64,000 nucleotides of DNA from Paragorgia papillata. Taxonomy: Eukaryota > Cnidaria > Anthozoa > Scleralcyonacea > Coralliidae. The notes beneath the pieces were generated by a model. It made no database searches. It was not told where the DNA came from and saw only the letters and a list, made by a program, of their open reading frames with translations. The translations under genes were made by a program, and so were the position numbers. Numbering within the stretch: position 1 is the stretch's first letter; each line of letters starts with the position of its first letter. Below are positions 52,801-55,800 of this stretch, piece after piece. Location of the stretch: assembly GCA_035771165.1 (NCBI GenBank), contig JAWNZC010000348.1, forward strand, positions 4,114,501-4,178,500, read 5' to 3'.

Positions 52801-55800
52801 CATCGACTCTGGCGAGCAGCTCATGCCTCTGTTTGATCATGCGCGACATTCCTCTCGTAGTGACTTTACGCAAAGCCAATATGTAGTTTTATTATAGGAT
52901 GCACTACTTCATGTAAAATTGCGCATTTTGATTGAATTGAGTTTTTTCACTGACGTTTGTTACTTTCCCATCCGTGACGTTGCATCATTGCGTCGCAAAA
53001 TTCACAATCAGGTTTGTGATCACAAAAACGCCTAAATATTAATAATATGAGTAACACGTAGATTGCGGGTGTTCCTGCCTATTTTTTTTTTATTTTTCTT
53101 TCTACAATATAATAAATTAACTAGTTTCTTAATTTTTTTTGTACTGAAGGTCGTAAGGCTGAGGAACAACCAAGGATAAAGTTAATTATCCATAAAAAAT
53201 TAAAAGAAAAAAATTAGAATTAATAGGAAAAGTTTAAGAGAAGTATGAAATAAAAAACAATTAAGAGGAATAAACCAAATTTTACGTCGATTTTCTCTTA
53301 AAATATAGATTTGTTTAAAAGCGCGCGGCCAATATAAATACAGCAAAGCTCGGCTTAATATAACTCATCCTCATCTCGTGTTTTCATGTACTGCTTGGCG
53401 GTATTTATAAATCGGAGGAAAAACATTCACTCGTGTTGATATACTGCTTTTACAATATTGTTTTAATGTAAATAGTCAAATTTCGGTATTAAAAAATCTC
53501 GTAATTACAAGTGAGTGAATTAACACTCAGTTTATTACATTTTTAGTTTCTCTACAACGCATTGCCTGCGAGCAGGTTACCTTAATCCTTTCCATAGATT
53601 CCTCCTGTTCTTCAGGAATGACAGAAAGAATCTCAATAAAATGATCTGCAGGATTGTAATTAGGTGGACAAGGATATCCAATGCTAAATGAAAATTAATT
53701 AATTAATTAATTATATATATATATATATATATATATATATATATATATATATATATATATATATATATATATATATATATATATATATAAATATATATAT
53801 ATATATATATATATAATAAATTGCGTCTTATGCACGTTGTGATTGGTCAGTTACTGTGTTTATATCAGGCTATGCAAACACGGTTGTGACATCACGGCAC
53901 ATTTCTCCGGCAACTCACTCCCGTGTTTGCATCAGGCTTTATTATATAGATGCGAGTGTTTTACTAGAGAATATGCAGTGTCGTATTTTCCATATCCTCA
54001 CTAGTGAAGATATCGATGACGTCATTAAGAATTTTAAAAGAAAATTACACGCTGGCTTGAAGATATGAATTTTATCTTCTCGTTGGTAAAAACGATATTT
54101 TACTCATTCGCTACGCTCATTCGTAAAATATTGTTTTCACCACTCGAAGATAAAATCAATATCTTCGCACCACCGTGTAATATCCTCTATATATAAACAC
54201 GGGCGTCCATTTCGTATTTCTTAAATAAATAAATATATATTAATTATATTATATTTACTTTAAATATAACAACAAAAATATATATATATATATTTAACAA
54301 ATAGATTACAATTTTCCATGTGTGTGTACTGTAATATATCACAGAAGACGTCACACCGTGTAAAGGACAACAGTCACACCACTCGGCTTCGTCTCGTGTC
54401 GTACTTTTATGTTGTTTACACACTGTGACGTCATCTGTGATCTATTACAGTACACACGCACGAAAAAATGTAATCTATTTGTTAAATATATATATATATA
54501 TATATATATATAGTTCAATCTACAGACACGGTGTTTCGCTGTACAACAGCTCATCAGTGTAGCTTGGAACAATCTGAATGAATTTCATCAATTACATATA
54601 CACATGCGATCGTCGGTGACAACCGCATGTGGGACAGCATCGGTGAAGTACATTCAGATAGCGTGAAGTGCGCATGGGCCCAGAGTGCTCAAACTTCCAC
54701 AAGGGTAGTGAGCGTTGCATTATCACTAATAGGTACCCATGGCAACTTCACAGAGTGCTCAACAGCACCGAAGTGAAGGAGCGTACATAGTTCAATATAT
54801 ATATATATATATATACGTGGAAGTTTGAGCACTCTGGCCCATGCGCACTTCACGCTATCTGAATGTACTTCACCGATGCTGTCCCACATGCGGTTGTCGC
54901 CGACGATCGCATGTGTATAAGTAATTGATGAAATTCATTCAGATTGTTCCAAGCTACACTGATGAGCTGTTGTACAGCGAAACACCGTGTCTGTAGATTG
55001 AACTATATATATATATATATATATATATATATATATATATATTATATGTGCATATATATACATACATGTTGTCATGCACTGCTCCAATCCATACGTTGAG
55101 TTGTTATATTTAAACTGTGCATGCAGTTTTTGGTTTTCTTGCTTTGTTTTTGAGATACACGTAAGTATAGTGTTTTCAGCTTGAAGACAAGTTACTAAAG
55201 TTTCAGTTGTTTTTGCTGTACAAGCTGTCGTTTCAGTAACTAAATTTCAGATTGTTTGATTTATTGAATGTCACAGTTTAAGCAGCTTCCATTACAGTTG
55301 ATTTCACATTACTTTACCGTCGTGTGTTGTGAAGGTTCGTTCGGAAGTCCAGAACTACGTTGCCATGGTTGACAATTATCCAATCAAATTGCGAACTTTG
55401 GATCAAAGCTCCATTTTGATTGGATAATTGTCAACCTTGTCAACGTATAGTTCCGACCTTCCAAACAAACTTCGCAACACAGAGCGGTAAAGTAATGTGA
55501 AATCAACTGTTATTACCCATTCTATATAAGTAATAATCGTAAATTACCCGTTAAAATATGGAAGTACATTTTCTCTTGGTCCAATGTACGCCAGACGACC
55601 ATCGGTTAACAAAATTACGCTAAAAAGACATACATATCTTTGTGATAATTTTAGATTTTCAAACGATATTCTTATAGATATAAACATGTGCATATATAAG
55701 TTTAATTAAGAGAATGTTCTCGTCGCTACTTTCATGCACCAGTTGGCCGAAACTTAAGGCAGAACTAAAAATAAGCATTTCACCATAACAATTATTTACG

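Follow-up and report, generated by a model that had tools for sequence, protein, structure and literature searches.

The window analysed here, a stretch of 64,000 nt from Paragorgia papillata (contig JAWNZC010000348.1, positions 4,114,501 to 4,178,500 of the forward strand), carries two copies of a hammerhead ribozyme that lie in opposite orientations among TA repeats near 54.5 kb, and a third copy near 17 kb. A sequence-only reading of the window had described the pair as a single inverted, TA-flanked element, which raises the question of what kind of element the ribozymes belong to and how two of them came to stand head to head. Our results make it probable that they mark insertions of a small non-autonomous, non-coding retrotransposon of the metazoan retrozyme type, and that the flagged region holds two such insertions in one TA tract; the elements seem to have been copied from small circular RNAs. 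Other animals have similar elements; what is unusual here is the fixed end, the TA target and the inverted pair.

Table 1. Positions of the hammerhead ribozymes, element copies and TA tracts in the window
Feature	Position	Strand	Remark
Hammerhead ribozyme	54946..55003	+	Predicted cut after 54991
Hammerhead ribozyme	54513..54570	-	Predicted cut 3' of 54525, minus strand
Hammerhead ribozyme	17445..17502	-	Predicted cut 3' of 17457, minus strand
Second hammerhead element, extended stem I	33470..33591	+	Core 33518-33561; ends GATTGCAC, then TATAT; sequence unlike the flagged copies
Full-length copy	54513..54795	-	277-nt unit plus 6-nt overlap, TTGAAC at both ends
5'-truncated copy	54817..55003	+	187 nt, orientation opposite to the full-length copy
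Third copy	17445..17511	-	67 nt, truncated almost to the ribozyme
TA tract	54486..54512		Abuts 3' end of full-length copy
TA tract	54795..54815		Between the facing 5' ends; first base is last base of left copy; C at 54816 before right copy
TA tract	55004..55042		Abuts 3' end of truncated copy
TA tract	17405..17444		Abuts 3' end of third copy
TA tract	17510..17529		At 5' end of third copy, overlapping its last two bases

Hammerhead ribozymes in the window

An exact-match search of the whole window confirmed that the 58-nt sequence occurs three times without a mismatch, at the places and on the strands given by the sequence-only reading (Table 1); the chance expectation for three identical copies was 0.00 in 100 shuffles. 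A rule-based scan for the core and three stems returned four sites, namely the three 58-mers and the core at 33.5 kb, against a background of 1 match in total over 60 dinucleotide-shuffled windows. The structure scan and a covariance model both find the type I layout in the flagged ribozymes (core CUGANGA...GAAA...UH, three stems, open at stem I), which supports the complete type I hammerhead that had been paired by hand, and the cut that we predict after 54991 agrees with the one proposed earlier.

The covariance model (R1) was built from viral contigs and contains no sequence from the window. A specific pattern search of these contigs yielded at least 120 loci, from which 128 sites with full flanks were read; 25 of the 128, each having at least 5 stem I pairs and a stem III stretch of 14 nt, were picked by hand and realigned. 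The gathering pattern prescribed the core as well as TCC/GGA in stem II, which makes the model demanding with respect to the core; the flagged ribozymes share this core, not that stem II. With filters off, the three flagged copies ranked first in the whole window at 31.5 bits each (E 1.3e-7), followed by 33510-33569(+) at 26.0 bits (E 8.1e-6), and the best place outside the four hammerheads reached 11.9 bits (E 0.44), all E-values being rough. An earlier alignment of 32 viral-contig hammerheads, in which stem III lengths differed and the 3' side was misaligned, was replaced by the 25-sequence set, and an aligned set of 57 hits, obtained by searching 40 of the 120 loci, enters no result. Each of four viral contigs (L008, L053, L062 and L116) contains three or four hammerheads, spread over about 1 to 8 kb.

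Searches with Rfam gave a different picture. At gathering thresholds it reported no hammerhead in the whole window, a tRNA being the sole entry. Relaxed searches, which covered the 54.5-kb region, reported no match of the type I model RF00163 for either flagged arm; the type III model scored 16.1 bits for both arms, and 18.0 bits for the right arm on a shorter stretch, against a cutoff of 48.5. One further lower-scoring match of the same clan was left unnamed in the search of both arms, and none in that of the right arm; the remaining relaxed matches of the region fell mostly on TA repeats. The sequence-only reading had named the lack of an above-threshold score in an Rfam type I search as grounds for giving up its assignment, and, taken literally, this is what the search returned at the flagged site. 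We attribute the miss to stem III, which has 3 bp and a 3-nt loop. On the scan and the covariance model, the hammerhead observation itself is confirmed.

Exact scans for the flagged ribozyme found 0 matches in viral contigs and 0 in prokaryotic genome contigs; a scan of the viral contigs for the ribozyme followed by a TTGMAC-TATATA end likewise gave 0, and blastn against phage records gave none. Since these collections are viral and prokaryotic, such negative results carry little weight for an element of animals.

The ribozyme fold of the 58-mer lies at -8.7 kcal/mol and its minimum-energy fold at -10.8, and the 58-mer folds no better than shuffled sequences (z -0.16; 79 of 200 shuffles fold as well). 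Stem III (ACACCGUGU) has only 3 bp within one molecule, and the strands of two molecules could pair over 8 bp with one C-C mismatch. Because dimeric action has been reported, in the available text of PMC7761336, for hammerheads with a weak helix III, this possible pairing makes dimeric action plausible here as well. RNA transcribed across the two arms would fold into a hairpin of about 188 bp, and this could mask the ribozyme.

The hammerhead at 33.5 kb differs in sequence and scores 33.6 bits against RF00163 (cutoff 34, E 3.3e-7). Its cut lies 30 nt before the junction of GATTGCAC with TATAT, and the element is flanked by short TA runs, not a microsatellite, in an AT-rich palindromic stretch. 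A 125-nt stretch of the element folds better than its shuffles (z -2.38, 2 of 200), and a 91-nt core stretch does not (z 0.15). The palindrome spans 33378-33678, with arms at 33378-33444 and 33612-33678 that are 93% complementary and the hammerhead mid-way between them; a 33-nt tandem repeat lies to the left at 33331-33423, and GATTGCACTATAT occurs at both ends of the element in opposite orientations. This hammerhead may be an insertion into the AT-rich loop of a hairpin element.

A 277-nt unit with a fixed end at TA repeats

Read in the ribozyme sense, from 54795 down to 54513, the full-length copy has the form (TA)n-TTGAACTATGTAC...hammerhead...TGTAGATTGAAC-(TA)n; it starts with TTGAACTATGTAC and ends with TTGAACTATATAT. 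The two TTGAAC motifs at its ends are 277 nt apart, and their repetition calls for a template with a head-to-tail junction, be it circular or tandem. The right copy starts within the unit, at 54817, and runs to the common TTGAAC at 55003, and the third copy starts just 9 nt before its 58-mer and shares the 3' end of the other two. Along their shared stretch (188 nt on the left and 187 nt on the right) the two arms differ by 2 substitutions and 1 indel over 188 columns. This stretch is what had been taken for a 189-nt unit; the figure holds for the part common to both arms, and the full unit is longer, at 277 nt.

The unit agrees in size and composition with published metazoan retrozymes, which are described in the available text of PMC7229834 as self-paired circles of about 170-400 nt with a type I hammerhead and a GC content below 50%, one of their hosts being a stony coral. 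Its GC content is 46.9%, and as a circle it folds at -87.3 kcal/mol, compared with -68.3 (sd 4.6) for 200 shuffles, none of which was as low. With 67.9% of its bases paired we count it as a self-paired monomer; the 70% quoted for retrozymes in the part of PMC4918200 available to us is just above this value. The unit is too short for a reverse transcriptase gene, and no frame of that size was found among the 37 stop-to-stop frames of at least 110 aa in the window, the longest of which, simple repeats aside, encodes a 399-aa GPCR. A reading of the unit as a tRNA-derived SINE was unsupported because Pol III promoter boxes are nearly absent from it: no B box was found with up to 2 mismatches, and the A box was matched nowhere exactly and once with one mismatch.

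Several observations weaken the retrozyme reading. Tandem arrays are typical of published metazoan retrozymes, and the window holds none: all three copies are single, with only the 6-nt overlap in the long one. No Rfam hammerhead match reaches the gathering threshold, stem III is short and the ribozyme fold is not the one of minimum energy. Finally, Nematostella retrozyme repeats carry 15-bp target duplications, according to the available text of PMC4918200, and none is recognisable here; the flanks of the three copies are TA repeats, in which a duplication and the repeat look alike.

In all three copies the 3' end is flush at the junction of TTGAAC with (TA)n; the 5' ends differ in all three, and each is no more than 1 nt from a TA tract. 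TA tracts of at least 14 nt make up only 0.7% of the window. The four hammerheads of the window all end in GATTG[AC]AC directly before TATAT, at 12 nt from the cut in three of them and 30 nt in one. The sequence between the cut and the 3' end is thus kept in all four, which suggests that the copied RNA was uncut there or had been religated. A pattern that joins core and end, devised once the ends were known, matched 4 times in the window with 0.00 expected. The 3'-end pattern GATTGNACTATAT, likewise picked after the ends were seen, gave 19 matches with two mismatches allowed, compared with 10.1 expected (1 of 100 shuffles reached 19). We used only its 5 exact matches, all of which lie at hammerhead elements (the 3' end of each of the four, plus the left end of the 33.5-kb element in inverted orientation).

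These statements on targeting rest on three copies and one related element, and the small number of copies, together with the position of the 33.5-kb element outside a microsatellite, counts against the retrozyme-insertion reading too. A hairpin element at 54278-54501 adjoins the flagged pair (92-nt arms, 89% complementary, 40 nt between them, TA on both sides), and the TA tract beside the pair seems to be an insertion hot spot.

From the ribozyme, the common 3' end, the variable 5' ends, the TA on both sides and the TTGAAC at both ends of the long copy, all read from the DNA itself, we infer the following RNA and enzyme steps. One copy or an array would be transcribed, multimeric transcripts would be cut by the hammerhead, and a host ligase would join the 277-nt monomer into a circle. 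The circle, or an uncut multimer, would be reverse-transcribed by an enzyme acting in trans, probably from a Penelope-like element. Synthesis would start immediately 3' of GATTGAAC, where a (TA)n microsatellite is broken. It would end early, giving a 5' truncation, or would make a full lap and stop just past its start, and the new cDNA would be joined to the TA tract across the break. The two flagged arms would be two such insertions, in opposite orientations, in one TA tract. A fixed 3' end, variable 5' ends and a simple-repeat target are the expected outcome of target-site reverse transcription with 5' truncation. Simple annealing leaves the fixed start unexplained, since the site after TTGAAC is not the best TA-pairing site in the circle: a TA primer pairs there over 6 nt counting G-T (3 strictly), and over 13 nt counting G-T elsewhere.

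The leading candidate for the mobilising enzyme is a Penelope-like reverse transcriptase. The discussion of PMC7229834, in its available part, proposes circular RNA templates and regards a Penelope-like enzyme as a strong candidate, and a purified Penelope-like protein from Anolis cleaves AT-rich DNA, acts on both target strands and starts reverse transcription inside its RNA (PMC11167929). An alternative template would be a linear read-through RNA with (UA)n after the ribozyme, as described for Terminons with telomeric repeats in the available text of PMC6431247; by itself, this leaves the 5' TTGAAC of the long copy unexplained.

Origin of the inverted pair

The arms of the pair are unequal, the third copy is solitary, and one 3' end is combined with different 5' ends; the claim that the inverted, TA-flanked pair forms one element is therefore unsupported. 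A common 3' end with differing 5' ends marks either 5'-truncated retro-insertions that occurred separately in (TA)n or a single insertion with priming on both strands. For separate insertions, the opposite orientations need no special mechanism because the reverse complement of (TA)n is again (TA)n. There are 5 TA clusters in the window, and by rough arithmetic three random insertions into them would share a cluster about half the time, with the head-to-head order in about one quarter of such cases. A tract shared by two independent insertions is thus not unlikely, and the pair needs no special mechanism.

A single insertion, in which the same RNA was copied from the same start on both strands of a cut TA tract and the inward cDNAs were joined head to head, is unlikely in our view, yet a serious rival. 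It predicts just what is seen: outward 3' ends with the same start, facing 5' ends, and one long and one short arm. In addition, the two strands of the target are both cleaved and extended by the lizard Penelope-like protein, apparently from the same start site (PMC11167929). However, a 21-nt TA tract separates the 5' ends, and the 3 differences in 188 columns between the arms would require later mutations or different templates; moreover, with only 5 TA clusters two independent insertions are not unlikely to share a tract. Twin priming of one linear RNA was set aside as a source of the inverted pair, since each arm would then hold a different part of the element, whereas they overlap by about 188 nt.

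That the copies are degenerate pseudo-LTR fragments of an autonomous Penelope-like element, with no independent small element involved, appears improbable. Partial tandems and minimal type I hammerheads are indeed features of Penelope-like elements (PMC11167929, and PMC7761336 in its available text), and the short stem III of the flagged ribozyme would fit; however, the long copy returns to its own start after 277 nt, with TTGAAC at either end, and the window has no reading frame of the size of such an element among its stop-to-stop frames of at least 110 aa. A dedicated inverted-repeat element (MITE or foldback) with both ribozymes working as a pair is very improbable, for the arms differ in extent and the solitary third copy has the same 3' end in another TA tract, although the inverted repeat with its TA flanks is 98% complementary over 198 nt, a hairpin element lies next door and the 33.5-kb hammerhead sits inside a palindrome.

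Beyond the reading as separate retrozyme insertions, the near-identical ends of two unlike hammerheads raise the doubtful but broader idea of a microsatellite-homing retrozyme class: hammerhead families sharing GATTG[AC]AC would be inserted by one reverse transcriptase acting in trans on circular RNA at TA repeats, often on both strands. If so, inverted ribozyme pairs would arise in a single event.

The GPCR frame lies at 7293-8492(-) and has 530 relatives in a protein search; among the best 120 of these most rows name no organism, and all that do are octocoral (Dendronephthya gigantea or Paramuricea clavata), which suggests an octocoral host or a close relative of one. A likely signal-peptide exon occurs at 17314-17377(+) and is followed by a GT at 17378; further along the same strand, 30013-36600(+) holds frames for trypsin, MAM and trypsin in turn. 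Should all of these be parts of a single gene, its first intron would contain the third copy in antisense and a later intron the 33.5-kb hammerhead in sense, from where it could cut the pre-mRNA. The window also contains a tRNA gene match at 56242-56318(-) (Rfam, 37.4 bits) and long simple-repeat arrays of (CTACCA)n at 21552-22652, (AACA)n at 28885-29339 and (AAGA)n at 62842-63376.

Relation to known hammerhead retroelements

The route by which metazoan retrozymes return to DNA is still under discussion. Here, the overlapping ends of a full-length copy, the 3' junction that truncated copies have in common with it and the simple AT target together amount to a prediction at the level of junctions, testable with an octocoral genome and RNA-seq. 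Among the literature matches listed, no title or abstract opening dealt with hammerhead retroelements at TA microsatellites or in octocorals, and our search found no paper linking retrozymes with microsatellites.

The kinship with metazoan retrozymes and Penelope-like elements that the sequence-only reading had suggested is supported. With the metazoan non-LTR retrozymes of Acropora, Mytilus and the axolotl, as presented in the available text of PMC7229834, the 277-nt unit shares the type I hammerhead, the GC content below 50%, the self-paired monomer, the multiple copies, a cnidarian host and the lack of coding capacity. In contrast to those retrozymes, the copies here are monomers or truncated instead of tandem arrays, their fixed 3' end is flush with TA microsatellites, and a second hammerhead of different sequence has a near-identical end.

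The Terminons of bdelloid rotifers, as far as the available text of PMC6431247 describes them, likewise have a 3'-end hammerhead followed directly by short target repeats, and copies 5'-truncated by the same repeats; however, Terminons are giant, coding and telomeric, whereas the elements described here are tiny, non-coding and located at interstitial TA repeats. The Penelope-like element Poseidon of Anolis (PMC11167929) resembles them in its hammerhead near the start of reverse transcription, its AT-rich target, its internal start and its use of both strands. Poseidon differs in being coding, with an AC-rich stem loop within the ORF as its main start site, whereas the element in the window is non-coding.
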